A stretch of 64,000 nucleotides of DNA, from NCBI GenBank assembly GCA_949130485.1, contig OX422191.1, positions 3,113,840-3,177,839 of the forward strand, read 5' to 3'. The position numbers and the translations under genes were made by a program. Shown one piece after another: positions 9,228 through 40,841 of the stretch; the stretch's first letter is position 1, and the number at the start of each line of letters is the position of its first letter. This stretch comes from Agelas oroides. Its lineage: Eukaryota > Porifera > Demospongiae > Agelasida > Agelasidae. A model generated the notes under the pieces. The model was not told the origin of the DNA, searched no databases, and worked only from the letters and a program-made list of their open reading frames with translations.

Positions 9228-12200
9228 CACAGTTCTCGTGCGGGCAGGGAGGGTGTGGAGCTTGCACAGTGAACATTCGACCATGGCCTAAGTCACCGAC
9301 AGATCCTCCAGCAAAGTTTGTTGCTGCCAATGGCTGCCTCAGGCCTCTAGCAGCAGTGCATGAGATGGATGTAAGTAGACAAAATGCGTGGAAACACCAC
9401 CTCTACTTCGTAATGAAAGTTCCAAATGTACTATATATGAGTAATATAGATATGGGCATTTTTCTTTCAGGTCCTTACAGTGGAGGGCCTGGGCAGCTGC
9501 ACCTCTACCCACAGGAATCTGGATCCCATTCAAGAGAGGATTGTCATGTACAATGGGTCCCAATGTGGGTAAGTTTTGCCACTGGGAAAGAGAAAAAGGA
9601 GGGAGTTTACCTGATTCTACTGCACTGCATTGGTTAAGTTGAAGGATATCTTTCTGTTTCTCTTCCTTCATGTCAGGTGGTGCACTCCTGGATTTGTGAT
9701 GGGAATGAATGCCTACCTTGACAACACACCTGAGGATCAGCGAACACTGATTGACATTGAGAACCTCTTTGATGGCCATTGTAAGTACCCACTCACACAG
9801 GATGATGCAACACAGAGATTGTTGTCTTAAAACCTAAGTAGCTATAAGCATTCAAACCCTCTGGTCATGAAATATAAATAGTGATTACAACAGCTTGCTT
9901 CATGCTGGAAGAGATTTAGGTGTTGTGAGGCAAAATAGAGAAGTGAAAACAATGCCTAAAATACGGGGGTATCACTGCCCAATTGGGCAGTGATAAACAC
10001 AGGTTTGACATTTGACATTTGACTAAGTGCATTGCTGCACTGCAACACTGAAAATTGCAGCAATATTAAGATCATTAAAATTTAAAGTTTACTTGAACTG
10101 CTCATATCATTATGACTGTGTGATGTCACTTCCTGTATTGTTAGTTGTACTATTACAATTCCCAAAACATTGGCAATGTATGACTCCACATATTCTCTTC
10201 CTACTTGAATGAAATGGGCAGTGATAAATTTCAGGCACTGGTGAAAAGCCAGCAGTCACCGGGAATCGAACCCGGCACACCTGGCTAATGCAGCCACTGC
10301 TCTGCCACTGAACCGACAACCGGTCAACCACCAGCCCCCACAATCCTTTATATGTACTGCACAAGTGGTAGTGAATGCACACCAAGCAGCCACTCAACAT
10401 GAACTCTGTTTAAGAGTCGAGCAAATTAAACATCAGGAGTGCTGTACATATAGAGGGGAATGTGAGGCCAAGTGGTTGTCAGGTTGTCGTACATAGCTAA
10501 GTGGAAGAGCACTCCTAATGAGAGTCCTAGGTTAATAGTAGTTGTTATATGTAGCAGCATTGGCTGACAATCTTGTGGATGAGTGTCTGTCTGATGGAGG
10601 TTGTTAATTATTCTTACATGAACGCGTCAGCATTTTTCTTAGAGCTATAAAGTATTGCACACAATGAAGATTTGATCCGGACTGCAAATTTTGTCTGATT
10701 TAACGAGGTATCCACTATAGAGAATGTCCATTGATGGAGGTTGCACTGTACACCCACTTGGACTGAAAATATGTCTGCTCATTGGCTCATTGAACACCTT
10801 TAAAATATTGAAAGGGCAGATGCTTGTTGAGTGTACATCAACTTGTAGAAACTACGTAGCAGCAAACTCACTGACACTAACATCACTGTAAATGCAGAGT
10901 GCATGCAGAGTGAACTTTGAACTCATGTAAAGCAGTGTGTGCATTATGAATGCAGACAGTGACCATAAAGTAGCTATATGTAGTGGCTGCAATGGCCATG
11001 GCTGCCGCACCTTTTATTACAAAAAAAGTTGCATGCGTATTACCTATTGCTGAAAAGGGATGTGGCATGATTTGACCTTAAGAGCTAGCGGTATCACTAT
11101 AAGACAGCAATGTACATAACATCATGAATGAAAACTCTGGTACCAAAACTGAAGCTGATCTCCAGTATGAAGTCGCTAGCGACTTGATCTTACTGCTGGA
11201 GATGCACATTATTACAGACGTGCATATCACATCACACTTGGACGAACGCGGTAAGGATAAAACTGATTGTTGCAGTACAAGCCTAAAGTGGTCTCTCGAT
11301 AATTGCATTCCAAGGTCCCACATTGTTTACACAGATACAACTGGCATCCTGTTTATTGTGCGATAATGCTTTTCTATTTCCAAGAAACTGCCCTATTGCA
11401 TTTTAAGTACCCTGTCTTCTCTATCTGCCATCAGTGTGTCGGTGCACTGGGTATCGTCCTATCTTGTGTGGAATGAAGACTTTTTCCAAGTGTGGGAATG
11501 AAGAAGAACTGAAGCATACTCCTCCTTTAATTTCTGATTCCAGCATGCCACACTCCACGTGAGTGACAGTGTATGTTGGTTGGTACAATTGTCTCTCCGA
11601 ACTATTGTTAACTCCTTACCTCTGGTAGCACCTGTATGCACCCAGAGGAGTAGTCTTGTGCCCAGACCCCAGGAAAACGGTCTGATGACAATTGGGCGCT
11701 TTCTTGGTTGCGCCAAGTCAGCGACAAATGTGTAATTTAGGTAGCATGTGCAAAACAGCTGGACCCAGTGCTGTGCCTGAGTATTTTGAGTTGGGCACTA
11801 TTGAAATATGACATGCTGTTACTACACTCCATGTTGTTTTTTTTCAACAGAGAAAAAACGCAGCATCCAAATGTCCGCGTTATCCACCAGGAAGCAGAGT
11901 CAGAGGAGGTCAATATACCTGATATGCTTGTAACAAGCAATGGCGATGCTACCTGGTATGGTCTGTGTACCATTGACCAGCTCTGGTCCTTGCTGTGGAA
12001 GTTTCGAGGAGACCGTGGTTGCATTCGTATTGTAACAGGCAACACTGCGTATGGTATCCAGCCTGTCCAGCCCATCATAGAGCAGCAGAAGATAATGCTC
12101 TATATTGGCCGCATTGCTCGCCTGCTTGAGCTGATTGCTGATGAGAAGAATATCACTGCTCGCTGTTCGGTTCCGATACAACGCCTCCAAGACCTTGTAA

Positions 12201-15200
12201 AGCAATTGGCTGAAGCACATGAGAAAGAAGATCAGCGTTCTTCATACCCACCGTCCGTGGCTTATGAGCACTGGAGACGGCTTGCTACAACTGAAGTACG
12301 CAATGTTGGTTCTATAGGAGGTAATATCTATCTAGCCAGGGAATGTGGGTTTCCCTCTGACCTCCTTCTTGTACTCGCCACACTTGGAGCCACTGTGAAG
12401 ATTGCAGGTGTAACTGATGAACATCATTCTATTGAAGAGAGGAGCATGTCAATAATGGAATTCTTGCAGGAAGAAGACATTCTTGATGGAACTAACATTA
12501 TCTATGAGGTGAAGATTCCTGTTGCGGTCCAGCAGAACGTCTTTATTCATACATACAAGGTTAGCCATCGACCACAAAATTCTCACCCTGTTGTGAATGC
12601 TGGATTTTCAGCAAAGATTGAGGAAACCGAATTTCATGATGTCTGCATTGTTTTTGGTAACATTGCTAAAAAGATTCACAAAATGTCAACCACTGAGAAA
12701 TGGATGCAAGACAACTGCACTACCATCAACCTAGCTAAGCAGCTATCTAAGCTGTTGCGTGTGCTGGAGAACGAGCTTCAGAGCATCGTTGTTCCAAGAA
12801 CGATTACCAGCCAGCAGTTTCGAGTAGATACAGCCTGCAACTTGTTCTTCAAGTACCTGGTCAAGATGGCATGTGTGTTTCAGCTTCCAGATTGGACTGA
12901 CCTCAGCCAGGTAATGTTGGAGGTTGCTCAAAATCTGTAGCCTCGTTCCCATACAGGTCTCCCCCATTTTTGTTCTTTGGTTTGCATTCAGTGTAATAAA
13001 CGGAAGTGGACACTCTTCCACTTGCATGTGTTATACTGAACACTAACCAAAATTTTAATAGCAAAAAAAGTGGGGGAGGTTTGGGAACGTAGCTACTCAA
13101 TCTGCCAACCTCCAACTACATGTATCATAAAAATTTACTTTTGAGAGAGATGGCTTACTCTAATGTAGGTTGTGATTGTCTAAATAGCTACCGCATGCTT
13201 TGAACACTTTGCAGCTTTTAGTTACTCTTAACAACTTTCTAGCTTCAATAAACTTGGTCATTAATTTTAAAAGTAACAAGCAGTGGCTGTCATTAACTCT
13301 TTTTCCTCCTTCACCTATAGTTGGAATCAGCTCCAAAATCCATCGTCAACGATCGTTTCACTGTCATATCTAGTGGACGCCAGGACTTCTGTGTCTATCG
13401 TGAAGAATTTCCCGTGAGTGAGCCAATTGTCAACCAAAGTGCCTTCTTGCAGGCCACGGGGGAGGCAAAGTACACACAAGACATTGGAAGGCAGGCCCCT
13501 CATCTAAACGGAGTCTACATTTTAAACATGGGAAAGAATGCTCAACCATATGCACAGTTCCAGATAAACACTCCCTCAGACTTGAAGGAGCGGTTTCCAG
13601 AAGTAGTGAGAGTCTTCACTGCTGAGGATTTGAAGGAGCCTACTGGCAAACCAGAAGATGATGTCTATCCCAGGAATAACCTTGGCAGAGGACAGCGTGG
13701 CTTCCCTGGAGACACACTCTTTGCTCAGAAGAAGGTTAGTCATATTCTGGGAGACAAGGTGCTGGGTGCCTGTATTTTTGTAACCACGGTATGTATCAGC
13801 TACCGTTTTTTAGCACATATGCCATACCATTTATGGCTGTGTTTACTGCATGTTTTGCCGGAAAAGAGGCTGAATACTGATAAAAATGCTGGAACTACAC
13901 ATTTCATGTATCATTAGTCATCTTATTTCACTATATACAGGTCTTGTACATTGGTCAACCCGTAGGAATGGTTGTGGCTGAGACAGAAGCAGCAGCACGA
14001 GAGGCAGCCAAGTGGATTCAAGATAACGCCATCACCTACATTGAGCTACCAGCTGTTCTCACACTGAATGACGCTATTGAGAAGAAAAACTTCTTCTATG
14101 ACCACACGACATACTCTAAAGCACCCTACAGGATACTGAAGGTTAAAATAAACAATGTATTCAAAGCTGCTGTAACTTCTTGCTGCTAGTATCTAAAGCC
14201 AGCCTAGTACATTGGTCAACCCGTAGGAATGGTTGTGGCTGAGACAGAAGCAGGCACATAGCATAGGTACAAAGGGCTAGCACTGCAATTTTTAAAAATA
14301 AATCAATTTCAGTTGGGGAGAGCCTGAGTGAGTCCACATTGTAAAAACAGTCAGCTAGGTTGCTTCAAAAATATTTTTAGGTTGTCTCAGTTGCATTAGT
14401 GTGACAAGGAATGTTACCTAATAGGTTTTGTTGAAGTCTATTGAGGAGCTTTTTAGTTAAAAACAGTGTCTTCTTTCAGAAGACCTATTTGGCTACGTTC
14501 CTGGCATTTTTACCATAACCGTGCAACCAAGGAAATCTTACAGGAGGCAGATGTATAATATCAAAGAAACACCAAACCTCACCAGAAATGCTGATTTATA
14601 AGCCTTCTGAAAGGGAGGGGATAAAGGGAGGAGCTTCTCAACTATACAAATTGGCACTTTATCATGCATAACATACACAACAGGCATACTACTGTGTAGC
14701 CTCGTTCCTAACTACTAACTACTAGGCATAGGTTTGATGTTATTTACTGTAAACCACAGTAGGCGCTCATGAATACTGATGTTTTTGCAGAGAGAATGAA
14801 ACATCCGGGATCCAGCTGGGATTTGAACCAGTTCAGTCCAGCTCTGAGAGAGTGAGAATCAGTTGGAATTTGGCTGAGGCCTCTAGGCAATGCTGCTTAT
14901 GTAGCTTGTCTTCCACTCCTCTGCCACGGGTCCAAGTGGCTTAATGGTAAGAGCGTCTGACTAGTATTCAGAAGGTCTTGGGTTCGAATCCCAGCTGGAT
15001 CCCGGATTTTTTTCCGTGGATGTATTTCTCACTCTCTCAGCAAAAACATCAGTAACTACTAGGCATACTACTGAGAGGACCAAACAATGGCTGAAATGTT
15101 GTTACAGTGTGCACACTAGCAGGACTGCATTGCACATGTGTGACTGTACGTATGCTTGATTGTTCACTTGCTTGGACCGCCCACTTACAATAAATTTCAA

Positions 15201-18200
15201 ATGAGCACACAAAATCACAAAGGTTGAATGTCAGTGCAGCTCAACTCAGCTGTGAGAACAAGAGTGAAAGACTAGTACGTACGTAGTGTCAGCGTGAAAG
15301 AGATTGAGAGCAAAGATGACTCAAGTTCAGTGTGTTTGCAGCACACATGACAACCATAATTATAAATTTGGATCTGATGGCTATGTGACAAGGTTGGCTG
15401 CAAGTCACAGATGGCACACTGGCGAAGTTTGCTTCAAGTAAGCATTGTGCATAAACGACAAGCTGGACCACTACCTTTAGTGCAATGCTTAGTCCATGCA
15501 TGTGTAGCCATAGTACATAGGTGCTCTGGGTCAGCATGTGTGGTCACCTACATGTGTACACTATCCTATACTTAAATACAGTAACACATATGTAATTCCT
15601 GCTGCAAGCTAGCTGCTGATGCTGATATGAATGAAAAACTTATCCTATAAAGAAGTTCACAATTAATCAATGACTAGCTAGACATTATCAGCTACACAAT
15701 CATTCATGGAACAAATGGAATGAAGTGTTTCTACGCAATTTTGCACAAGGAAGGGGAACTAATCCCAACAGAAGAGGAATATTGTTATATACCAGGGAGA
15801 TGCTGCATCATCCTTGGGTGTGCCAAAGCAAGTAGCTGATGAAGCAAATCTCACAGCTATAAGGCCCACATTATGGGGTGTTAATTTTTTAACTTAACCA
15901 TATATATACCAATACTATAATATTATAGGTCAGTCGCCCTGAGTCACTGTCTGCTATTGACTGGAGCCCATTTGAGAATGATCCAGACATTGTGGTGGTG
16001 GAAGGCAGTCAGCGTGCAGGGACCCAGTGTCATTTCTACATGGAGACTCAATCAGCCATTGCTTACCCTACTGAGGAGGGAGGAGTCAAATTGTATGCCT
16101 CAACTCAGTCTCCAGATGATGCACAAGGTGTTGTAGCAAACGTCTGCAACCTTCCTGCAAATCAAGTCACAATTGAGGTAAGTCGAGTTTCCATTATTAT
16201 TTCTATTTGTGTTCTATATGCGTACTTAACAACTACTGTTGTTTTCTCGTCATGGTCAGATCACCCGGATTGGTGGTGGCTATGGAGGCAAGGAAGTCCA
16301 GTCCAAGTTTGTAGCAGCCGCTGCAGGTTTCTGTGCTCAGCAACTCCGGCAGCCAGTCCGAGTGGCAACTTTTCGTGTTGAAGATATGCAAATGATAGGG
16401 AAACGCCATACCTACCTTGGAAAATTCAAACTAGCAGCCACTAAAGATGGAAAAATAAAAGCAATGCACATACACTTCTATAGCGATGGTGGCTGTACCT
16501 ATGATGCCACGTTTCCTGTGATGAATCGTGGACTGTTGTGCAGTGACAATGCCTACAATGTCCCAACATTTCTAGCCCAGGGAGACTGTGCTATGACTAA
16601 TAAGGTCACTAGCACTGCCTTTCGCTCATTTGGTGTTATCCAGACCATGTTGATAGTGGAAGCAGCTGTCGAGGCTTTGGCTGATAAGCTTCAAATCCCA
16701 GATGATGTACTGAGAGAGAAGAACTTCTACAAGTTGAATGATTCCACACCGTTTGGCCAACAGCTACACTACTGCAACCTGAGCGGTGTGTGGCAGACCA
16801 TCAAGGAGACCTCAGACTATGAAGCACGCAAGAAAGCAGTCAAGGAATTTAATGAGAACAACCGCTACAAAAAGCGAGGAATTAAGCTGATACCATTGAA
16901 GTTTGGGATCTCAATCATCTACAAGCATATGAATCAAGGTCAGTGTGTACCATGGACTATATAAACTATAAAAGTAATTAGGGCCAGCTTGAAATAAACC
17001 CAACACTCACAAGTTTGTCTGGTGTGTGGGTCAGTTCAGGTTATGCTGTTAAATGCAGTCCCCATGAAAATCAAGGCCACTATAACCAATTCAGAAGTGT
17101 AAAGCCACATGTACTGTGTTAATGCTCTACTTCATAATGCTCACTTATAGCCTCCACCAAGAAAGAACACATGACATCCGATCATGGAATCTGTTCTACA
17201 ATTTGTTCACAGGGTCAGCTGCTATCAGCGTGTACCACCATGATGGTACAGTGTTACTCTCCCATGGAGGAGTGGAAATGGGCCAGGGTCTAAACACTAA
17301 GATGATGCAGATTGCCTCTCAAGAGCTGCACGTCCCAATGGAAATCATAAGGGTGACTCCCAACTCCACAGAGAAGGTATAGCTACAAGTGGAAAATGCT
17401 GAAGTGCAAAACTGAAGTATGGAAGTGAAAAGAAAAGCCTGTCAGTTCAGAATCAGTTTCTAGTGCTTTTCTGACTCACGACTGTGCCTTGTAGCCAAAG
17501 GGTGACTGTCTCCAACGCCGGGTACTGGGTTCCAGTGAGCACTAAACACAGTCATTTAGCATGAGACGGTGACTGTAGTCTTGTCGAGACTACATTGACT
17601 ATTTTCTAGCACTACAATACTTCTGTAACTGATTGAGCCAACACTTATATTTGCATCACTGTCACGACAACATCAAGAGCATAAAGCCCGCATGGTTGGC
17701 CCACTCACTGTTAGTTTGGTTCTGGAAAAACTCACTGTGGCATCATGATAGCGACACTAGCTGCAGTCCGAGTCACAGGATCCGACTCTCACATGGCTGG
17801 GAGACAGTCAACCTTTGGCTACAAGGCCTCGATACGCAAGTCATGAGTCAGTACTAGGCACTGGACAGTGATAGGCGGATTTTCTTCTCACTTCTGTAAT
17901 TCAATTTCCATAAATTCCATACTTCAGTTTCTGTACTTCGGTTTCCACACTTAACTCTTGCTCTATCAGGGCCGGAGCCAGCTATTTTAGACTGGTACGG
18001 CCATTGCGTGAGCTTAAGTTGAATAAGCTAGGGGGGTCTGGGGGCATGCTCCCCCAGGGAAAATTTTTAAAATTAGGCACTCTGAGATTGCTTCTGAGGC
18101 CATGTTTGGGCCAAAATGCTACTAGAATCACCCCACCTGTAGTTTCTGTAGCTAGAGAAGTGATTGAACCGAGCTGCCAGAAATGACCACTACGCACGAC

Positions 18201-24200: not shown

Positions 24201-25278
24201 TGTTGTACGGGTAGAACAGTGTATTTAGCAGGACGGCACGTAAAGAAATCGGACTTGAATTGAAGATTCTACGCTCCGAAGCGCATTTATCACGCCTAAG
24301 GCAGTTAAATTCCTACAAATATTATACACAAACCGCCAGATATCTTTAAGTGCCGACCTAGCAACTACTGTGTAGTAGTGCAATAAAAACTTTTCAGGAT
24401 TGAACTCTTTACAGTTGCCGAGTAATTTGGCGCAAAGAGTGTTCGAGTGGTGCGGCTAGTTGCTGGTTCGAATGCGTTGAGGCGTTTTTAAACATAAGCT
24501 TTTTTGTCTCTGAATAATACATTTCTTTCATGTGCTGTTGGACTGCAACTTGTTTGAGATAAATATCAGTCACGGTTTTCGAAATATTAAAGCAATAAAT
24601 TTACTATGCCAACAGCCTTCGGCACGGTTGATCGTAACCTTAACTCTGTTTTGTGCATATATGCATGAAGAAAATATTTTGGGGTCTCGTCAATTGAAGC
24701 CACACAGGAGTTAGATATCCAGGTAGCACTGGCCACATTTGAATGCTTCCATGTGTTGACAAAAGACCAGACTGATTTTCCATGGTTATACACGATACTT
24801 AAAACAAAGCCACTGAAATGGAAAATGGGAACTGGACTTTGGCAGTAGAACTGCCATTAAATTCATGCTAATCCCTGCAGATCCTAATGGTATCCAGTCC
24901 TCCAAGACAACTGGAGAGCCTCCGTTAGTGTTAGCAAACTCCGTTTTCTTTGCTATCAAACAAGCAGTGACTGAGGCTCGAAAAGAAGTGGGATTGACCG
25001 GTCCTTTCACATTTGATTCCCCTGCTACTGTGCCGAGGATCCAGCAGGCTTGTGCTGTAAAAATGGCAAACGCTGCATGCATCCAACTAGAGCATAAGGG
25101 GGGATGGAAGAGACTGGAACAGGAACTGGAGACCCAACTAGAACATAAGGGGGGACGGAAGAGACTGGAACAGGAACTGGACACCCAACTAGAGCATAAG
25201 GGGGGACGGAAGAGACTGGAACAGGAACTGGACACCCAACTAGAACTGGACACCCAACTAGAACATAAGGTGCTTTAA
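7332..25278 (+). CDS. Xanthine dehydrogenase-type molybdo-flavoenzyme, copy B (complete, 16 exons)
   Basis: Exons: 7332–7517, 9233–9370, 9471–9568, 9677–9780, 11435–11558, 11851–12910, 13321–13734, 13941–14141, 15929–16177, 16260–16938, 17213–17376, 19058–19237, 20020–20259, 20449–20577, 21063–21168, 24881–25278. All phases agree and give about 1489 aa. An in-frame TGA precedes the start. The 2Fe-2S domain has Cys65, 70, 73 and 97; the second cluster has Cys140, 143, 177 and 179 (CRCTGYRPI). The FAD domain spans about 230–570 ([15 protein letters not shown]). The molybdopterin domain is about 600–1440. Equivalents of bovine Gln767, Glu802, Arg880, Arg912, Phe914 and Glu1261 are Gln808, Glu870, Arg948, Arg980, Phe982 and Glu1370. 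The Glu/Arg pair favours xanthine dehydrogenase over aldehyde oxidase, but bovine Phe1009 is Ile here. The tail after about residue 1423 is a repeat absent from copy A. Confidence 0.9.
7941..8281. mobile_element. TA-flanked MITE in intron 1 of copy B
   Basis: TACCGTAAAATCGGGATA at the left is mirrored by TATCCCGATTTTATGGTA at the right, with GGTGCTTATT motifs inside in both orientations. It is non-coding. Confidence 0.65.
9165..9226 (+). repeat. (TG)n microsatellite abutting the exon 2 acceptor
   Basis: About thirty TG units run straight into TTTCACAG, the acceptor used by exon 2 at 9233, so the dinucleotide run takes the place of the polypyrimidine tract. A T-rich stretch (9098–9164) lies just before it. 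Confidence 0.9.
9781..11434. other. Intron 4 of copy B, containing SINE sequences
   Basis: Apart from the tRNA-like piece at 10240–10325 and a second weaker one near 10460–10530, nothing coding is visible. Confidence 0.4.
10240..10325 (-). repeat. tRNA-derived SINE
   Basis: On the minus strand a box A-like GGTTCAGTGGCAGAGCA and a box B GGGTTCGATTCCC lie about 40 bp apart. The folding is not a clean cloverleaf, and related pieces recur near 25330–25560, 28140–28200 and 51850–51935, so this is a SINE rather than a working tRNA gene. Confidence 0.6.
12939..13096. mobile_element. TAGCCTCGTTCCC-family inverted-repeat element
   Basis: This copy in intron 6 runs from TAGCCTCGTTCCC to GGGAACGTAGCTA with an AT-rich inverted interior. 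The flanks CAAAATCTG and CTCAATCTG are near-identical 9-mers, fitting a 9-bp target duplication. Confidence 0.65.
14206..14253 (+). pseudogene. Stray duplicate of the start of exon 8
   Basis: About 45 nt from GTACATTGGTCAACCCGTAG onward repeat 13947–13991 of exon 8 almost exactly, then diverge. The copy lies in intron 8, about 65 bp past the exon's end, and has no donor, so it is a fragment and not an alternative exon. Confidence 0.75.
14254..15928. other. Intron 8 of copy B
   Basis: Outside the SINE pair the intron shows no conserved coding frame on either strand. Confidence 0.4.
14780..15060. repeat. tRNA-derived SINE pair in inverted orientation
   Basis: The plus-strand unit at 14935–15045 has GGCTTAATGGTAAGAGCG (box A) and GGGTTCGAATCCC (box B), then GGATCCCGG and a T-run. 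An inverted relative (GGGATCCAGCTGGGATTTGAACC) lies at 14805–14930. A third relative lies around 56235–56680. Confidence 0.65.
17967..18476. mobile_element. hAT-like MITE in intron 11 of copy B
   Basis: Ends are CAGGGCCGGAGCC and CCGCCGGCCCTG, with an inner inverted match (GGTACGGCC and GGCCGTACC). The flanks share TCTAT. It encodes no transposase. Confidence 0.65.
18912..19030. mobile_element. Short inverted-repeat element of the TAGTCT...AGACTA type
   Basis: TAGTCTCGGTCCCAGACCC at the left is mirrored by GAGGTCTGGGGACAAGACTA at the right. It ends about 30 bp before exon 12. Confidence 0.55.
19645..19893. mobile_element. Hairpin MITE present in copy B but not copy A
   Basis: GTGACAGTCCCGTGTAGAAA at the left is mirrored by TTTCTACACGGGACTGTCAC at the right, with a second inverted pair (TTAAGGGCAGGGCTCATAC) inside. 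The corresponding intron of copy A (near 700) lacks it, so it inserted after the duplication. A diverged relative lies at 42650–42835. Confidence 0.75.
21295..21410 (+). repeat. Tandem repeat, about 37 bp × 3
   Basis: Three successive units contain CACACTCAAAATGTCTGCGT followed by TAGATTAGTCAAAGG. The array lies in intron 15 of copy B. Confidence 0.85.
21702..22241. mobile_element. TA-flanked MITE in intron 15 of copy B
   Basis: TACCGTAGACTCTGGTTAAT at the left is mirrored by AACCAGAGTTTACGGTA at the right. GCGCCTAATA motifs are scattered inside. It is absent from copy A. Confidence 0.65.
22612..22735 (+). repeat. Tandem repeat, about 21 bp × 6
   Basis: The unit is TTAGAACACTAGCTGGCAA with a variant ending CAGTTGGCTAT. 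Confidence 0.85.
23297..23928. mobile_element. Foldback element with arms of about 130 bp
   Basis: The left arm (23297–23425) starts AGTCACAAAAAGTTTTCTGA and is mirrored by the right arm (23795–23928), with about 370 bp of CA-rich sequence between. It is absent from copy A. Confidence 0.75.
23973..24639. mobile_element. piggyBac-type MITE (TTAA target site)
   Basis: The ends GGTTACGATCAAC and GTTGATCGTAACC are exact inverse copies and are flanked on both sides by TTAA (23969–23972 and 24640–24643), the piggyBac target duplication. Copy A keeps the empty site in the same intron. The 667-bp interior has no transposase. Confidence 0.8.
25074..25275 (+). repeat. In-frame coding minisatellite (51-bp unit) at the end of copy B
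   Basis: The unit encodes [17 protein letters not shown] (17 aa). Roughly three units are followed by two short partial ones, then HKVL and a stop. Copy A instead ends KMAKAAP at the equivalent point, and no homology is seen downstream. The Leu/Glu/Lys pattern suggests a charged helix. Confidence 0.85.
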
Positions 25279-26134: not shown

Positions 26135-29100
26135 CTAGATGTGAGCTTGAGATGATGTCATGCCAGGAACAGTGGTTCTACAGAAGTCTCCTAGGTTCTT
26201 GAACCTCAGTGCAACTGTGGCTAGGTCATTACTGGGAAGATCAGTAGTCATCAGAGCATGCATGTGGCCATATACCATGACATCAAGAGTGGTCGGCCTG
26301 GTGAACAGTAGAAGGTAAATGAATATCAAACAGCTTTGAACTTGTTGGCTCCAGTCTTGTTTCCAAGCCTGAAAGAAGAGGAGAAAGGGAATGGTGGCTA
26401 TATTCCTAGTTTCCATCTCTTTTCTCCTCTCTCTTCACTCGGGCCTGGGAAACAAGTAATAACTAGTAATAAGTAGTCGTGTGTATGATTAGCTAACTGT
26501 AGTCTAACAATGCATAACATACTATAGAGCTGGAAATCAGCTGAAATTCTATTACCTATTTGATGACCAAAAAGGCATTTAAATCCCCAAGATAGTCTCA
26601 TCTCCAGACCAAATTTTTGGCAAGCACCCTGTGGCCCCATCGAAAAGTATGGTCTGGACACATTCACTAGGGGGCTAATTCCTCGGCATTAGTCACACCA
26701 ATCCGATTGTAAATTTAATGATGGCCAGCTCGTAAATTTGTGGTTACCATGCATGGCTTATGCTACTACAGTATTGACCACCGTAATCTCAACTGGTCTA
26801 GGACTAAGACGCCCTAGTCTTGTGCCTAGATCCAGCCCTCTCATGAGGGAAAGGGTCTGGTGACACATGCCCCAATCTTTAGTCTTGTGAAAATCCTGAA
26901 GCCTTGTAACTGCTTACAAATTGGTCACTGTTGAACAATGAATCTCACAACATCACTTCCAGGCGGAGCAGTACAACTGAAGCATTTGTTCTCACTTATG
27001 ACTTATACTGCTCTGAGATTTCATTGGTCGCTCCATGCTTCTGCTCTGAGATTTCATTGGTCGCTCCATGCTTCTGTAGCTACATGTAACCCAAGGACTT
27101 GGTTTTGTGATACCTGACCTAGTCTTGTGCCCCGCCTGCGCGCGCCTCCTGGCGAGAAACGGTCTGGTGAACAAAGTCAAATTTCTTGGGCTTATTTCCC
27201 AAAAGTGGTAAAAACCAATGAGATTGCGAGATCGGTAATTATTACATAGCACTTCCTTTACAACAGTAAAATTTTAAAATCTATTCGAGTATCTGTACCT
27301 TTTTAGAGCAGGTTTGGCGTAAAATGTTTTGAACACTGCTAGGTGACACAGGTGACACCATTGCAAAAGCGTGTGCTAGCCCAAGAAATTCGACTTGGTT
27401 CACCAGACCATTTCTCCTCATGAGAGGGTGGGGTCTGGGGACGAGACTACACCAGACCTCCTGTTCGCACGCGACTTCAAGACATCCTATAACTCCCTCA
27501 CCCGGCGCTGAAGAAGGTCTTGCTTTTGTCCAGTCTCTCAGACAGTGTGCTGCAGGCCTGCTCAAACTCCAGCACTACCTCATCCTGCTGTCTCCTGAAC
27601 ACCTCCCAGTGGTGCCAACAATAGCGGACCTGCTTTATTCGGGGGATCACTGAGCTCAGGGGCCAGGGGAGACCAGAGCCATGTACTGGTGCAGAGTACT
27701 ATATGTGTGACAGAAAAACCAGAAGATTTGTGACTTACGTGTAGGCATGTATCCTCCCCCCCTCCAAGAGAGGTTTCCGAATTGGAAGGGCATCCTAAGG
27801 TTGATACACACCTGACCTCACTGTTTCAAATGTACATTAATGATCACCAGTTGAGGTTTGGTTGAAATTTACTGGTAAATTTTTCACACTTAAAAAAAAC
27901 ATCTATAGTTTAAATGAAATTATTACATCTTGAAGCTTAATGCAAAATTTTGCACCATATGTAAATTTCCCACTGTATGGTATTAAACACAAACATGTGC
28001 ATATAGACAGAATTGGAATTGGTACCTCATTGAAATTCTTTGTGTTCACCCACTGATAGTATTCCTATACAGAAATTTTACACAACAAAATTAATCAAGG
28101 ACATGATCCTTATATAGGTGCTTCGGATGAGAGTGAGTGAAAAACTGGCTCAGCGGTCTAAGAGTACTGGCAGCTCAAGGTATGGGCGACAGTTTGAATG
28201 TCTTTGCTTCCTTCTTATAGACCTCATACTATCGAATGTGTTTATATAGATGGTGTTGTTTGGAGTCACTGGTACATTTCGAGACTTATTGATCAGTTCT
28301 ATACACAAAAATGCACCCATGAGTGGTGTACCTAGTCTCGACCCTCCTAAAAAACAATGCCATGAACCCACTGATGTAGCCACGTTCTCAGACTCTCTCC
28401 TCCTCGGAGGAGGGAGTCTGGGAATGAGGCTACAATTGATGAAAGTGACTACACTCAAATCCATGCCACCTTGCTCCACTATAGCCTGGGTAGGCATAAC
28501 AGTAATAGGTACCACTGATGTAGCCTCATTCCACGACTCTCTCCTCCCTGTTTTTTGAGGAAGGAGCGTGGGAACGAGGCTACAACCAATGAAAGTAACT
28601 ACAACCCCATGTGGATTGGACAAGGAGCAAAAGGCTAGTCAGCCTACAAGGACTGTTCCACTCATTCACACCCACCTTCATGCAGTATTACATAGTGACA
28701 GACTTGAAGCCTCACCTCAGTGGGGATGATCTTTGTCCTGATGAGGGATATGAAGGCTTCCTGATTTGCCTTCTCTTTGGGCTCCAGATCAACAGTTAAG
28801 CCAAGGTGCTATGATACAATGAGGCAAGTACATATGTATACACACAGGGCCACTGTTTGCTGCATACTAGATCCACCAGCACCCAAAAGCCATATTGTAC
28901 ATCACACAATTAGTTTGATGATCTCTAACTAATGTCAGTCCAACTAACTTACATGTCAGTAGTAAATTGTGACATCTGGAAGGTAAACACTCCGACGTTT
29001 TAGGAAAAAAGACAACACACTGTTTTGCAGTTCATGGAATTTAGTGCTTTTTTGTGATCAATGAACATTGCCATAATGGTAGTAGCCACTCGCATGCATT

Positions 29101-32100
29101 AGGGAAAGTCCCTTGTATCTTTTAGGGAAAGTCCCTTGTATCATTTAGGGAAAGTCCCTTGTGAGAACTACAAATAGTGTACTACTTATTTGAAGGCTGA
29201 GAAGCAACTGGATACCCAAAAATGAAGTACCGGGCTAACAAGAGTCAACAAACTTGCATGTTTTGAAATCACTTAGTGAAATATGTTCACTTGTATGTTC
29301 ACTTGTATATATTCATTCATCATATTCCACTCTTGCATGTTTTGAAATCACTTAGTGAAATACAAAAATTGGGGGTGGGCAGTTACACGGAGGAGGTGCT
29401 TGAATGGTTCGACTGTCCCCACGCAAGCGCCCACCCCGGATGCAAAGTTAGCTGCCGGGGTGTACCGAATCGACCTGCATCATGGCTTCGCCAGTACTTC
29501 GTCGAGGCCAGCCTGATGGTAGAGAAAGCTGTATTGTGATAGAAAGCGGACCGACTCGTAGCCTTGTTGCCAAGCTTCCACAGCGTTCATCCCTTGCAGT
29601 ACGCAAATTTCGTGCTGCAAGCGAAGAACGCTGCGAACAATGCTACGGACGGGTGTTTGTGAAACTTTGATGCCGGATGTCGTGGCGCCTGAAGCACATC
29701 AGAACAACCGCAGCTATGTAAGTGAGCTCAGCAGCTACTTTCGATCCACTACGCAAAATTTAGCAGGGTGGTTGGTTACATGGAGGACCTCAAAAAACCA
29801 CAAAACTGTCAAAATTGGGGGGTGGGCACTTGCTCGGGGATGGGCGCTTGCCCGGGACAATACGGTATATATTCATTCATCATATTCCACTCTGGCCATG
29901 CAGTAAGATCTACATGTATGTACATGTACTAGGTGTACGTATTCACAGTGTAGGGCTACATCACAATTACAAAGCCTCGCTCCACTTTGCTGTGCTCGGC
30001 AATTAGTTAATTAACTCAAAAGCGCATAAGAACGGGCGGCTAGAGTAAGAGTGTGTAACTCCAATAGAAGCCTGTAGTCTAGGCAAAATTTTTGAGCCAC
30101 CCTAAAAATAGAACACCCGGTCATGTGCTGTGGCAACAATGGCTTCTGTTACATAGCATGCGGAGTACGTGTTACTATTTTTAGTACTGGCAGTAAATTA
30201 CACCCGGTCTCAAATTTTACGAAATTACACACTCTATACTCTAGGCACCCGTTCTTTATGAGTTCTTGACATGTACATACGTATTAGTCTCATTGTTAGA
30301 CCTTTCCACTGTCCAGTTTATGATCACTTGAACATGCTCCATTTTTGCCTACAGTAAGTGAACAGTGGGAAGACTTAGTGTTGTTCCTAGACCCTCCCAA
30401 AGAGTGAAAAAGAAGGGTCTGGTAAAGGAGCTGAGGTGGAAGTGTACACTGTGGAATGATAGGGATTTCAGTAAGTGCTGTCACCAGTTGAGCCTTTTGC
30501 TAAACCAGATACTTGCAGAAGTGTGTTCATAACTTTCAGCAACGATGCAAAACACAGCTGCTGCAAAGACAGCTCATGTGTGGTTAGCATTTCTAATAAA
30601 TGCTGATCAGAATGCTAATCAAAAGCTAATAGGAAGTTTGCCAGCATACTGAGCGCATTGTAAACTTCCACCCCAACCGCTTACCAGACCATGCCTTCAA
30701 TATCTTGAGGGTCTGGTTCCGAGACTAGGGAAGCCTGGGAATGAGGCTATGTATATATTACACATAGCAGAGGGTCAGGAACAGAGACTATCATGCAAGC
30801 CATAAATAAAGTGGGTGTGGAGTAGGATGAACCTGTGTTTCCAGAAATGAGACCATCTTCTCAAAGTCACTGAAGATCAAGGGCTGGGGACCCATCTTCA
30901 AACACAGGAAGGGGGCAGTCCCTACAGTAAAACAAAGTCACAGAAGATCAAGGGCTGGGGACCCAGCTTCAAACACAGGAAGGGGGCAGTCCCTACAGTA
31001 AAACAAAGTCACTGAAGATCAAGGGCTGGGGACCCGTCTTCAAACACAGGAAGGGGGCAGTCCCTACAGCAAAACAAAGTCACTGAAGATCAAGGGCTGG
31101 GGACCCGTCTTCAAACACAGGAAGGGGGCAGTCCCTACAGCAAAACAAAGTCACTGAAGATCAAGGGCTGGGGACCCAGCTTCAAACACAGGAAGGGGGC
31201 AGTCCCTACAGCAAAACAAAGTCACTGAAGATCAAGGGCTGGGGACCCAGCTTCAAACACAGGAAGGGGGCAGTCCCTACAGCAAAACAAAGTCACTGAA
31301 GATCAAGGGCTGGGGACCCATCTTCAAACACAGGAAGGGGGCAGTCCCTACAGTAAAACAAAGTCACTGAAGATCAAGGGCTGGGGACCCATCTTTAAAC
31401 ACAGGAAGGAGTCCCTACAGCAAAACAAAGTCACTGAAGATCAAGGGCTGGGGACCGTCTTCAAACACAGGAAGGGGGCAGTCCCTACAGTAAAACAAAG
31501 TCGCTGAAGATCAAGGGCTGGGGACCCATCTTCAAACACAGGAAGGGGGCAGTCCCTACAGTAAAACAAAGTCGCTGAAGATCAAGGGCTGGGGACCCAT
31601 CTTCAAACACTGGAAGGGGGCAGTCCCTACAGTAAAACAAAGTCGTTGAAGATCAAGGGCTGGGGACCCAGCTTCAAACACAGGAAGGGGCAGTCCCTAC
31701 AGTAAAACAAAGTCGCTGAAGATCAAGGGCTGGGGACCCAGCTTCAAACACAGGAAGGGGCAGTCCCTACAGTAAAACAAAGTCACCGAAGATCAAGGGC
31801 TGGGGACCCATCTTCAAACACAGGAAGGGGGCAGTCCCTACAGTAAAACAGAGATGAAAATTAAGCTTGTTGGCCTAGCATATGTACCGTATTTCTTCGA
31901 ATAGTCACTGCCCTCGAATAGTAGCCACACAATCAGAAGCTCTAAACAAAATAAATGCCGCCCTCGAATAGTAGCCGTGGCTAGTAAACACGGCACACGC
32001 ACACGTGTGTGAATGATTTCTGACACTGGTCACCACGCTAGCGATAGGACTGTTTGTGTTTTACGAGTTGTTCCAACAGCTGAAAGCACGACTGAAAGGC

Positions 32101-35100
32101 TGAGCATACTACTGACAGCGTCTAGCAATTGTCACTGTCTCACTCGTACGTACCTTATCCAGCCGTCGTTGATGTCTCCGGGCTTTCCAAAGAAATAAAC
32201 GCTGCCCTCGAATAGTAGCCGCACAAAACAAGCAGTGAAATAAATAGTAGCCGCGGCATCTGATTGAAGAAAATATGGTATATTTAAACAGCTTATGCAG
32301 TCCTGGTTGTTTATTTTTCTCCGATTATGCAAATACTCCCGTTTCCAGCTCTTGAACGGACACTACCACAATAGGCCTTGAGATCTTGTAGGCCCCTCCC
32401 TCCCTTTTGTGTACACTTTACTGTAGTACATGCACTTTGTATCAACTAGTTGCTCCTTACAGCCGTTACTGCATTGTTGCTCTTTTATAAACAGTTGCAG
32501 CTGGCGTTCTCAAAAGTGGACACAAGTGCACACACAAAACATTACAGTATTACCTGAAGGAGACATATAGTCAACATTGGGGGCCACTCTGCCGGTGTAT
32601 GGTAGCCCCGCTAACTGCAGGTAGGACTGCAAGAAACGAGATGTGGTGATGTGTGTGGTAATAATTACCTCCTTGTGTGCACACAGTATGGACACTCATG
32701 TGATGGGTATTAACCCTTTCTACTCACAATGCATGGTTAACTCATGTGATGGGTATTAACCCTTTCTACTCACAATGCATGGTTAACTCATGTGACAACG
32801 GTATTAACCCTTTCTACTCACAATGCATGATTAACTCGTGATGGTATTAACCCTTTCTACTCACAATGCATGATTAACTCATGTGATGGTACATGTATTA
32901 ACCCTTTCTACTCACAATGCTCATGTGACGACAGTATTAATCCTTTATACTCACACTGTTACAGTATTGGTACACACACATACAGTCAACTAATTGCCAC
33001 AAGAGTTCACGACATTTCGAATGAATGCTCCAGTTGTCATCAGGGAGAAAGTTAACCTTTCTCTTCATTCATGCAGGAGGCAACTTAGCTTCGTTCCCAT
33101 GTCCCGCCCAGCTTTCTGTCACTTGCAGTATGCGCTGGGAGAGCCTGGGAACGAGGCTAGAGGCAACTGAGAAGCCACTAAAAATGCAAGGCTAATGTAC
33201 AAGAAGGGGTTTTTACCTCAAACACGAATCTTCTTGCCCTGTCTGTCAATAGTTCCCGCTCTGTACATAGGAGAATGACAAGAGTCACAGTATTTGGTGC
33301 TGGGTTGTCAGTAAATGTACTGTGAGGAAGAAGAGGTTCTGACCAAATTTGGTTGAAACACACCAGTAAAGTACCCAGGCCTCTTCCCCCCTAGTCTCGA
33401 ACCCAGACTCTCCTCCATGGAGGAAAGGGGAACTTATCTTCTCTGGAGGGGGGGTCTGGGAACGAGACTACCTCTTCCCAGCATTTGCCATTAATGTCAA
33501 TGGTGGGAAGTGATGGTAAAACTTGTCCCATGCAGCGATGCACCTTAGGTGAACGTCTGGAGGCGTGGCAATTCCTGGTGATGTTAAAAAAACAAATTCA
33601 GGAATGCCCCTTGGTGGGATAGAAATGTATGTTGCTCCCTGGGAAGAGGTCAGTTTGTAGCAGAAACTGAGAAACTCAGAAAGTTGTCTCTGCTAGCCAA
33701 TATACAGCACTATGATACCTTTCCTTGAAGTAATTTTTTTTGAGCCTTCCAACGCAGTGCTCGGCTAGCCTCATTCCCAGGCCTCCCCCATTTTTGTTCT
33801 TCGGTTTGAAGCGGAAGAGCGGCAAAAAAACGGGGAAGGCCTGGGAACACCTATCACGTGAATGACGTCTGGTGGATGCGAGGTGGACGTAGGGGGGGTG
33901 GTGCCCAACTACAAATAACGTACTATACTTCATCATCGAGTGCTCCAACGATAGCCAGGACCCCAGACGTTCACGAGATCGACAGTACTTGACTTCACCG
34001 GTAAGAAACTTGCTCTACCGTATATTGCACACGAGTTTGTAGATGGGCACCACCCTCCCTACGTCCACCTCATGTTCACCAAACGTCATTCACGTGATAG
34101 GTGTTCCCAGGCCTTCCCTGTTTTTCGCCGCTCTTCTGCGTCCGTGTATTATACTGAACGCAAACCGAAGAACAAAAAACAGGACGAGGCTAGTGCTCGG
34201 AAACTACCATAAAAGAGCAGTACACTTCTATCCCATCAACAGACTAGGCCATTACTTATTGTTGTAAATGTAGGCACTCTTTGTGACGAGTTTGTGTGTT
34301 TTGTCCATGCTTAATTACTGAGAGGTGAAGGTCCGTCCTCCTAGTTAAAACTCACCTGGGGGCAGACAATAAAGGAGAGCATCCTCTGGCCACCTGAAAT
34401 TACCTGAGAGATAGGAAAACACAACGGAAGTAATTAGCACAGGGGCAATAGTAATTACCTCTCATCCCCTCCTACAGGTTTACACTAAGCCACACCTCTT
34501 CACTGCAACCAATAAATTAGCCTAGTTCCATCCAACAAAACAAGTTGCATTCCCCACACATTGACTCCGTCTGGGGAACGCATATACTATATATATAAAT
34601 AGAATAGCATTTTATCTCATGGAGTTGGTTGCCAAAAAAAAGGGACTGTAAGTCCCAGTATGACCGGAGCAAGAGACTACGTACTTCATCCTTCCATTAG
34701 AGCTCTGCATTGCTGATAAACACAAGGCCATTTATTATGGACTTGGAGATGCCAGATATTTGGAGCTGACGAGCAGAGTTGTACAATCGACCAGATTTTG
34801 GTTATTTGTAGCTAGTACAAAGAGCCTCCTGAGAACGACGCATTAGAAGCATTATCTTTGAACCAATGTGTATTGGTACTAGCCTCGTTCCCAGGCCGTT
34901 CCCGCCTCCAGTTTTTGATCGCTTGCAGTATAAAAACGGAGGGGAAGGCCTGGGAGAAAGAGTCACGTGCGTGACGTCAGGTAGACGTGAGGGGGGCGGT
35001 GCCCGATCGTTGTAACTCACAAACTTTGCGTTGATCAGACTCGAGTCTACCAAACAACGAGCTGTATTGATGCTGTCTTTCAAACGTTACAGTCTCAAGT

Positions 35101-35651
35101 TCTTGGACAAGATATTACAAGAAGGACCTCGAGATTCTTCGTCGGGCACCGCCCCCCTCACGTCTACCCTCACGTCTACCTGACGTCACGCACGTGACTC
35201 TTTCTCCCAGGCCTTCCCCTCCGTTTTTATACTGCAAGCGATCAAAAACTGGAGGCGGGAACGGCCTGGGAACGAGGCTATATTGGTACCCATCACCCTT
35301 AGTCTCACATGGCTTGGAAGGAGTGGGTCTGGCTAATCTAGATCCTACACTCTGATTCCTAGCCTCATTCCAAGGCTTCTTTGTTTTTATCTGGGGTGCA
35401 GGAGAGAGCCTGGCAAATGATTGCCCAACTACTTCTACTTCCATCCTTCCCTTTCCTCACCGCCTGCCTGCATGCACACACCCACATGCACACACACACA
35501 CACACACACACATACACACACCCACACACTCCCCACACACACACTCCCACACACAAATCTTTCAACATTCGCTTTCATGTTGTTCTAAACACACTAGCTA
35601 ACCAGTGGCTGAAGCTAGTAACTGCTCAGCGTAGGTTTTCTCCGAGGCCAT
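26135..35651 (-). CDS. MTX2: Metaxin-2 (mitochondrial outer-membrane import/assembly protein), complete
   Basis: Metaxin-2 works with metaxin-1 and the SAM complex at the outer mitochondrial membrane. Exons in reading order: 35651–35603, 34403–34356, 33260–33217, 32626–32554, 30921–30833, 28808–28676, 27649–27502, 26297–26135. Every phase agrees; the sum is 747 nt, or 248 aa (human 263). The start reads MASEKTYAEQLLASATG, then WPEDALLY (human WPENATLY), LAGLPYTGRVAPNVDYMSPS (human ends AEYMSPSG), TAPFLCL (human VPFIHV), LEPKEKANQEAFISL, and HHWEVFRRQ (human KQWEV). The GST-C end PTTLDVMVYGHMHALMTTDL matches human [20 protein letters not shown]. Single exons are too short to be noticed alone. 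The exon 5 donor (AG/GTTCAT) is weak. Exon 5 is the last unit of a 71-bp array. Expression is probably driven from a promoter shared with the HP1 gene. Confidence 0.88.
26700..27000. repeat. Diverged inverted-repeat element in metaxin-2 intron 7
   Basis: AGTCTTGTGCCTAGATCCAG, CTCTCATGAGG and a GGCGGAGCAGTACAA interior resemble the 43472–43786 family. Borders are uncertain. Confidence 0.4.
27118..27449. mobile_element. TAGTCTTGTGCCC-type inverted-repeat element
   Basis: TAGTCTTGTGCCCCG at the left is mirrored by GGGGACGAGACTA at the right, with CGGTCTGGTGAAC and GTTCACCAGACC inside. A full relative in reverse orientation lies at 49429–49741. It ends about 50 bp from metaxin-2 exon 7. Confidence 0.7.
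28371..28585. mobile_element. Two adjacent short TAGCC-family hairpins
   Basis: Hairpins at 28376–28435 and 28517–28582 both run from TAGCCWC to GAGGCTAC and are set in a local duplication (CCACTGATGTAGCC...CAATGAAAGT). They lie in metaxin-2 intron 6, close to exon 6. Confidence 0.65.
29098..29162 (+). repeat. Short tandem repeat, about 23 bp × 3
   Basis: TTAGGGAAAGTCCCTTGTAT is repeated three times. GGGAAAGTCCC inside is itself nearly palindromic. Confidence 0.8.
29350..29875. mobile_element. Probable MITE in metaxin-2 intron 5
   Basis: AAAATTGGGGGTGGGCAGTT near 29364 recurs as AAAATTGGGGGGTGGGCACTT near 29810, and the right edge AATACGGTA matches the TACCGTAT ends of other elements here. 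The left border is unclear. Confidence 0.35.
30863..31856 (-). repeat. 71-bp minisatellite made of the metaxin-2 exon 5 splice acceptor and exon body (14 units)
   Basis: Unit starts fall at about 30863, 30934, 31005, 31076, 31147, 31218, 31289, 31360, 31427, 31497, 31568, 31639, 31709 and 31779. On the minus strand each unit holds TTTGTTTTACTGTAG, a 3' splice site, then about 60 nt that read GTAPFLCLKMGPQPLIFSDF. Only the leftmost unit runs on into the unique rest of exon 5 and its donor. Reading through from any other unit meets the TAG of the next acceptor. Some units differ by small deletions. Confidence 0.9.
31885..32280. mobile_element. TA-flanked MITE ('gccctcgaatagtagcc' family)
   Basis: TACCGTATTTCTTCGAATAG is mirrored by TTGAAGAAAATATGGTA, and CCCTCGAATAGTAGCC recurs inside. 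It lies in metaxin-2 intron 4 next to the 71-bp array. Confidence 0.75.
32692..32955 (+). repeat. Tandem repeat, about 47 bp × 5
   Basis: Units read GTATTAACCCTTTCTACTCA followed by CAATGCATGRTTAACTC, with drift in the last copies. It starts about 65 bp upstream of metaxin-2 exon 4 (minus sense). Confidence 0.85.
33086..33166. mobile_element. Short TAGCC-family hairpin
   Basis: TTAGCTTCGTTCCCATG is mirrored by CCTGGGAACGAGGCTAG, about 50 bp from metaxin-2 exon 3. Confidence 0.55.
33390..33474. mobile_element. Short TAGTCTCG hairpin
   Basis: TAGTCTCGAACCCAGAC is mirrored by GTCTGGGAACGAGACTA. Confidence 0.65.
33764..34192. mobile_element. TAGCCTCGTTCCC-family element, long form
   Basis: It runs from TAGCCTCATTCCCAGGCC to GGACGAGGCTA with CACGTGAATGACGTC inverted inside. 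The flanks GTGCTCGGC and GTGCTCGGA fit a 9-bp target duplication with one change. Confidence 0.75.
34880..35280. mobile_element. TAGCCTCGTTCCC-family element with exact 9-bp target duplication
   Basis: The foldback runs from TAGCCTCGTTCCCAGGCC to GGCCTGGGAACGAGGCTA and its arms match over roughly 190 bp. The flanks are TATTGGTAC on both sides. It lies in metaxin-2 intron 1. Confidence 0.85.
35478..35554 (+). repeat. (CA)n-rich microsatellite
   Basis: Interrupted CACACA and CCACACA runs lie about 50 bp downstream of metaxin-2 exon 1 (minus sense). Confidence 0.85.
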
Positions 35652-39391: not shown

Positions 39392-40841
39392 GCTACGTCA
39401 TTCACCTTTTTCATCTTATTCTCTCACCAGCTATGCAAGAGGCTATGAACTAACTCACTGTTATTATCCATCTATCCCTTCTTTGTGTACATGTGCCACT
39501 TCACCTTTTTGTTACTATTATGTAGGCTATCTATTTACTAGTACTGGCATATAGTACATTCTCACTTTTTTCTACATGTATGTACATTTATGAGGTACGT
39601 GTAAGGCCTGCCATTACTGTACAGTAGAGTTCATCTCAAAGCTATGGTAATTTCTCTTTCAGTGATATCATGAGGTGTTATTGTTGTGTTGTGTGCGAAG
39701 AACCTGATGGATGATATGGTTTTAGAGAAGGTGTAGCAAGCAAGGATAACCATGAAAACAGTAGTCTTTGTTTTACGTCCTCTCCTCTTGATCTCACAGC
39801 TGTTAGCCTTACTGTCTTGTCCCCAGGCCCTGCATGATCAGCTCTTTCTATTGTTTGTAGTACGGAAAAAATGAAAGCTAGATGGGACCTGGGAACGAGG
39901 ATTCATCTTTGTTCTGATATTGATAGTCTCTTGTGCCAGACACAGTCCTCTCTCGTGGGGAAATGTAGCCTCGTTCCCAGACAAGGCTAGGGGAGATGGA
40001 TCTGGTGACAAGCCTGGTCTTCCGAAACCATTTAATTGCAAGAATGAATCTTACAACATCACTTGGAGCAGTATGGGATCCAAGTGTCTCGAGATCTCAT
40101 CTTGTCCTTTCAGTGTGAGGGTGGGGTCTGCCCCTCTTCCGAAGACTATGTTGTCTTTTCAGTGTGAGGGTGGGGTCTGCCCCTCTTCCGAAGACTATGT
40201 TGTCTTTTCAGTGTGAGGGTGGGGTCTGCCCCTCTTCCGAAGACTATGTTGTCTTTTCAGTGTGAGGGTGGGGTCTGCCCCTCTTCCGAAGACTATGTTG
40301 TGCATGTTTATAAAGAATTGCTCAGCTCAGACTACTATACAGCCAAGGTTTCATTATGCATGCAGATAGTCTATGCATGTTGGTTACACAAACTACATCC
40401 CAGTCCCTCCCTGTAACATGAGTTTTAGTGCTACAGTTGATCTTTTTGCTTATATAAAGCTTCATCCTACACAGCTCTAGCTTTTGCTGTCAACAGCAGA
40501 GCTTAAACTGTACTCCCCCTCTTAAGAGCTAAAATGCCATCTTGTGTGAGTTGACATCTCCCTGCCTCCTGGGCAAGTGGCAAGCATGTTGAGACAGCAA
40601 TACTTCGTCAAACTTTTCACCAGTGAGATTATTCCGTTTCAAACATATTACAGATCTCTACGGTCTGCCCCTCTTCCGAAGACTATGTTGTGCATGTTTA
40701 TAAAGAATTGCTCAGACTACTACTATACAGCCAAGGTTTCATTATGCAGATAGTCGATGTTACCTGAATGCTACTGTATAACTAAGAGGTCAAAAGAAAA
40801 GGGGAACCGGAAGCAATGGCTAGCTATAGTTTAGTGAAGAG
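39392..40841. other. Spacer between HP1 and the PCBP 3' end
   Basis: It holds repeats at 39966–40000 and 40107–40301. The text TCTGCCCCTCTTCCGAAGAC onward recurs once more at 40660–40750. The PCBP 3' end is expected between here and 44243 but was not identified. Confidence 0.35.
40107..40301 (+). repeat. Tandem repeat, 49 bp × 4
   Basis: Units contain TTTTCAGTGTGAGGGTGGGG followed by TCTGCCCCTCTTCCGAAGAC and are almost identical, so the expansion is young. Confidence 0.85.

Follow-up and report, generated by a model that had tools for sequence, protein, structure and literature searches.

Minisatellites that span the intron-exon boundaries of amphioxus genes were described as "mirages" in Adh3, BflGb6, BflGb9 and TnC (PMC3087553, PMC3902484), and similar imperfect repeats were reported for lancelet PGBD5 (PMC3902484). 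Mirages are found on the acceptor or on the donor side, and many, but not all, of their copies carry splice signals. In BflGb6, the 3′ end of an intron and the 5′ part of an exon are duplicated, the two haplotypes having 6 and 3 units, and the authors take their RT-PCR data to suggest that regular splicing is undisturbed (PMC3087553). The Adh and TnC mirages are reported to give no aberrant mRNAs (PMC3902484). The repeated splice signals could act as cryptic sites and lead to alternative or aberrant transcripts, and the exonic part of a mirage unit was proposed to turn into a real exon (PMC3087553).

A boundary array of this kind is located in a metaxin-2-like gene within the window, i.e., the analyzed stretch of 64 kb on a 9.56-Mb contig (assembly of 259 Mb in 141 contigs). 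The original prediction had described a metaxin-2 exon and its splice acceptor amplified into a 14-unit minisatellite, each unit comprising on the minus strand the end of intron 4 and about 60 nt of exon 5. TRF bore this out, reporting 14.0 copies of a 71-bp period (95% matches, score 1775 at a threshold of 50) at 30862-31850. The features of the gene and of the array are:

35603..35651, minus strand, exon 1, coding part from the ATG (nine-exon join)
34356..34403, minus strand, exon 2 (nine-exon join)
33217..33260, minus strand, exon 3 (nine-exon join)
32554..32626, minus strand, exon 4 (nine-exon join)
30862..31850, minus strand (gene strand), minisatellite of 14 x 71 bp across the boundary of intron 4 and exon 5 (TRF)
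31787..31837, minus strand, possible in-frame cassette exon of 51 nt in unit 1 (prediction only)
30933..31848, minus strand, 13 decoy units, the acceptor AG being intact in all
30922..30932, minus strand, acceptor of unit 14, TTTTACTGTAG, the sole one of the 14 with an intact frame by read-through
30833..30921, minus strand, exon 5, 89 nt, phase 1 in and phase 0 out, starting inside unit 14, donor CAG|GTTCAT
28716..28808, minus strand, exon 6 (nine-exon join)
28026..28064, minus strand, exon 7 (nine-exon join)
27502..27698, minus strand, exon 8 (nine-exon join)
26135..26297, minus strand, exon 9, up to the stop codon (nine-exon join)

The units were delimited by splitting the array at TTTT[AG]CTGTAG on the minus strand. 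Each contains 11 nt from the end of intron 4, followed by the initial 60 nt of exon 5, or fewer where bases are deleted. Ten units are 71 bp long (unit 14 being cut at 71), three 70 bp (units 2, 3 and 6) and one 67 bp (unit 7). Unit 14 continues with the final 29 nt of exon 5, which are unique. The AG is intact in all 14 units, so that 13 decoy acceptors lie upstream of the true one, as had been predicted. Tandem repeats span the intron-exon boundary of a protein-coding gene, as in the mirages, and the presumed authentic boundary, placed by the frame being open via unit 14 alone, is located at the edge of the array and adjoins the unique part of the exon. The claim that all acceptors have the same sequence holds for the last 11 intron bases, which are identical except for an A/G change in units 7 and 9-12, and fails for unit 1, whose upstream tract differs. 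A genome search with a 401-base query from the exon side of the array, which gives lower bounds for repeats, returned seven matches. Six are in the array, and the seventh, of about 40 bases, is on C4 and corresponds to intron-5 sequence in the query; the array was found at one place only. It is known from one assembly and one allele.

The metaxin-2 array is a large new instance of the described mirage class in a different gene, and perhaps in a different animal group. It shares with the mirages the duplication of a boundary at minisatellite size, the copied splice signals and the authentic site beside the unique exon. Its anatomy is that of BflGb6, and a unit size of 71 bp is covered by the range reported for Adh3 (10-72 bp). 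The array has 14 units and resides in another gene, whereas BflGb6 has 6 and 3 units, each measuring 150-160 bp; RT-PCR, haplotype and somatic instability data belong to the amphioxus work. Two other systems are similar in part. IFI6 (6-16, G1P3) also contains a transcribed minisatellite repeating a splice signal, but there the donor side is repeated and units are used as donors in the mRNA (PMC4526556). Intron gain by tandem genomic duplication likewise copies splice signals within a coding gene, but makes a new intron (PMC4974935), whereas the metaxin-2 array offers weak donors only, the best of them in unit 1. "Mirage" in the reniform nematode is an unrelated transposon name (PMC7960049). 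The original prediction knew of no described case of such a minisatellite in this gene; the class as such is known from amphioxus, whereas a literature search among open-licence papers found none that pairs metaxin with a minisatellite. A boundary array in another animal may already be in print.

Joining the nine minus-strand exons gives a protein of 264 aa without internal stop, and all eight introns have GT and AG ends. The metaxin-2 frame passes through 30833-30921, as it should if exon 5 is located there. The protein matches Tom37 (1.4e-19), GST_N_4 (9.3e-14) and GST_C_6 (8.9e-13) above the curated Pfam cut-offs, the set of domains that characterizes metaxins. Compared with provisional human sequences, it is nearer to metaxin-2 (139 bits, 82/254 identical) than to metaxin-1 (86 bits). 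The single other GST_C_6 locus found, on C23, looks more like metaxin-1, its exons matching the provisional human queries with 44, 39 and 31 bits (metaxin-1) vs. 41, 26 and 25 bits (metaxin-2), and no spare metaxin-2 was therefore seen. Among solved structures, there was no match to the metaxin protein at E 0.001; the ten weaker ones (E 0.12-0.97) include SAM37 at 0.41-0.53, with immunoglobulin chains ranked above it.

Over the 14 units, 26 change events from the consensus were counted, an average of 1.9 per unit. Units 8 and 14 equal the consensus, unit 9 is identical to unit 10 and unit 11 to unit 12. Neighboring units differ less than in random order (2.38 vs. 3.02 differences, p = 0.017, 20,000 permutations), which fits local duplication. 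Regarding the edges, unit 1 is one change off the consensus and unit 14 none, differences too few to judge homogenization. Frame-breaking deletions are present in four of the 13 decoys (units 2, 3, 6 and 7) and further decoys have amino-acid changes relative to unit 14, as expected of DNA that is not read as protein. The deletions also rule out the units as tandem coding exons. Unit 13, which precedes the acceptor of unit 14, is the only one with TTCTG instead of TTCAG, a change that removes the AG upstream of this acceptor. Because units 1 and 3 lost the same AG through other changes, this is at best suggestive.

When exon 4 is connected to each acceptor in turn and translation continued as far as the exon-5 donor, the frame is open only from unit 14, in line with the prediction that only the unit adjoining the unique 3′ part yields a full exon. 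From each of the 13 decoys a stop is encountered, so the expected truncation on read-through was found throughout. The in-frame TAG supplied by the next acceptor, which had been named as its cause, is responsible in nine of the 13 (units 1, 4, 5 and 8-13); in units 2, 3, 6 and 7, which carry the deletions, other codons stop the frame earlier. Skipping of exon 5 breaks the frame, with a stop after 77 aa. That any decoy use truncates the protein is correct for plain read-through only, since predicted 51-nt cassettes would keep the frame in nine of the 13 decoys (units 1, 4, 5 and 8-13) with GTGACT or GCGACT as donor. Seven of these have a GT donor, and units 4 and 5 are in frame only with a GC donor. 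The motif GTGACT itself occurs in nine decoys (units 1 and 6-13), 51 nt past the acceptor (50 in unit 6, 47 in unit 7). Unit 1 is the only one with a G before the GT (TCG|GTGACT), and its predicted cassette (51 nt, phase 1 to phase 1) would add 17 aa, giving 281 aa with the full frame kept. The original alternative of splicing either to the last unit or from unit to unit stands for the first option in that unit 14 is in frame. Splicing between adjacent units would need an intron of 20 nt, presumably too short, so unit-to-unit splicing would have to skip at least one unit.

Splice sites were scored with generic matrices built from approximate frequencies. On this scale, the acceptor of unit 1, with its different upstream tract, reaches 10.6 and the other 13 array acceptors 7.5-8.1 (unit 14: 8.1), compared with 6.2 to 11.6 for the seven other acceptors of the gene; a score of at least 8.1 is found for 2% of the AGs in the window. 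The eight real donors score 1.9 to 12.5, the exon-5 donor being the weakest (1.9) and that of exon 1 reaching 4.9. The donor of unit 1 scores 4.6, the best of the weak donors in the array. As 8% of the 8,141 GTs on both strands of the window score at least 4.6, this value alone proves nothing. With the top-scoring array acceptor in unit 1, which is also transcribed first, and no donor in the gene weaker than that of exon 5, it is not certain that unit 14 is used cleanly. Units 1 and 6-14 contain TGAC, noted by eye as a possible branch point, about 17 nt before the following AG. A 528-nt stretch of array plus exon 5 is predicted to fold no more strongly than shuffled sequences (z = -0.13, 100 shuffles), which gives no support to an RNA structure hiding the decoys.

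The array is most probably a mirage that is tolerated because the exon-proximal acceptor is used often enough. A 71-bp segment, comprising the very end of intron 4 and 60 nt of the adjoining exon 5, would have been duplicated in tandem and enlarged to 14 units through local duplications. The unit that continues into the unique exon-5 end would have retained the functional exon, leaving the other 13 to drift as non-coding intron 4. Enough functional mRNA could be made through the acceptor at the shortest distance from the exon-5 donor, namely that of unit 14. Exon definition would favor this choice, as the exon measures 89 nt from unit 14 and 160 to 1005 nt from the decoys. The mRNAs resulting from decoy use would mostly contain stops and would be degraded. 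Tolerance rather than a function of the array is what this reading suggests.

The alternatives were weighed against the same evidence. Unit 1, and sometimes other units, might be spliced as a 51-nt cassette between exons 4 and 5, i.e., a nascent exon born from the mirage, which is considered unlikely. Such a cassette would combine the top acceptor of the array (10.6) with the sole G before GT at a donor (4.6) close to that of exon 1 (4.9) and above that of exon 5 (1.9), would keep the frame at a predicted 281 aa and would follow a published model of intron gain, in which the exonic part of a mirage unit is recruited (PMC3087553). However, donors of this score make up 8% of the GTs in the window, a length that is a multiple of three has a prior of one in three, and the 17-aa insert would sit within the Tom37 and GST_N_4 matches. 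The underlying event, one base change beside a pre-existing GTGACT giving unit 1 a usable donor while the remaining units form a new intron, is given the same low probability. If true, the locus would represent a present-day intermediate of the intron/exon-gain model put forward for the amphioxus globins, in an animal whose genome contains boundary-spanning arrays more than once. Less probable still is a regulatory element whose length sets the fraction of decoy-spliced, degraded transcripts and tunes the output of metaxin-2, a role of array length that is a guess. With the AG kept and a read-through stop in 13 of 13 decoys, such decoy use would lower the output. The kept AGs show no selection, though, as less than one loss is expected by chance (26 x 2/71 = 0.7), and the amphioxus mirages are reported as not disturbing splicing (PMC3087553, PMC3902484).

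A damaged allele, in which the first acceptor is used, the metaxin-2 mRNA is truncated and the function comes from another, shorter allele, would agree with the acceptor of unit 1 being the strongest and the first transcribed. It is very unlikely in view of nine exons that are all intact, introns with GT and AG ends and no spare metaxin-2 being seen, given the more metaxin-1-like appearance of the GST_C_6 locus on C23. Tandem arrays are generally error-prone in assemblies, and the copy number might be inflated or invented. Against such an error, several units are told apart by private changes, and the array measures about 1 kb on a 9.56-Mb contig, so long reads presumably span it; this explanation is regarded as extremely unlikely.

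Fourteen near-identical acceptors before one donor amount to a natural experiment on spliceosome choice, first-come vs. nearest-to-donor. The array is not an isolated case, since the genome is rich in arrays and contains a second one that spans a boundary. Base rates were determined in 264 kb, comprising the window and 200 kb of the same contig (L010-L029). In total, 69 TRF arrays with a period of at least 20 were found after merging of overlapping rows, 14 in the window and 55 in the 200-kb block, covering 4.7% and 5.2% of the sequence, respectively. With random placement, about 0.75 of the 16 splice sites in the gene would be expected to be covered by an array. The second boundary array (44 bp, 2.7 copies; L023:6376-6495, C9:2636376-2636495) spans the end and the donor of a TTC21B/IFT139-like exon. 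Its donor reads CAACAG|GTACCAG, and a complete decoy donor follows 44 bp further on, use of which would read into a stop after GQQVPAV. Joined to the next exon, the exon aligns without gaps to the TTC21B chain 8fgw D of the PDB (41/42 residues, E = 4.9e-12), which supports the first donor as authentic, and a neighboring exon also matches TTC21B (E 4.6e-21). Boundary arrays thus number at least 2 of 69, with edge ORFs judged by eye and the window chosen because of one of them. An automatic screen for acceptor-side arrays gave 5 doubtful matches and was discarded, as its donor filter was too strict and it missed the metaxin array. If boundary arrays are as frequent in this genome as 2 per 264 kb, a figure from a very small and biased sample, the animal would lend itself to following splice-site duplication, its tolerance and the possible birth of exons or introns.

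Several other repeats were noted in the same sequences. Pyrimidine-rich minisatellites at L023:2719-2994 and L021:1160-1358 (minus strand) reach or approach the acceptors of exons that are TTC21B-like (L023) and, by eye, WD40-like (L021); these arrays may themselves serve as polypyrimidine tract. In the window, a 49-bp array of 4.1 copies at 40102-40301 has a unit with TTGTCTTTTCAG, which on the plus strand resembles an acceptor; a portion of this unit, together with its flank, is found again near 40660. It was rejected as a boundary array, no coding exon being shown beside it. A 51-bp array of 3.2 copies at 25083-25246 is open on the plus strand with 17 codons per unit, and ends an ORF that resembles the C-terminus of xanthine dehydrogenase by eye and has no Pfam match. 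Further ORFs similar to xanthine dehydrogenase/aldehyde oxidase (FAD_binding_5, CO_deh_flav_C, MoCoBD_1) are located at 11741-16961 on the plus strand, opposite to the metaxin gene. Finally, the dispersed motif CCTCGTTCCCAG, which occurs 15 times in the window and 30 times in the 200 kb (L010-L029) when both strands are counted, looks like part of a mobile element.
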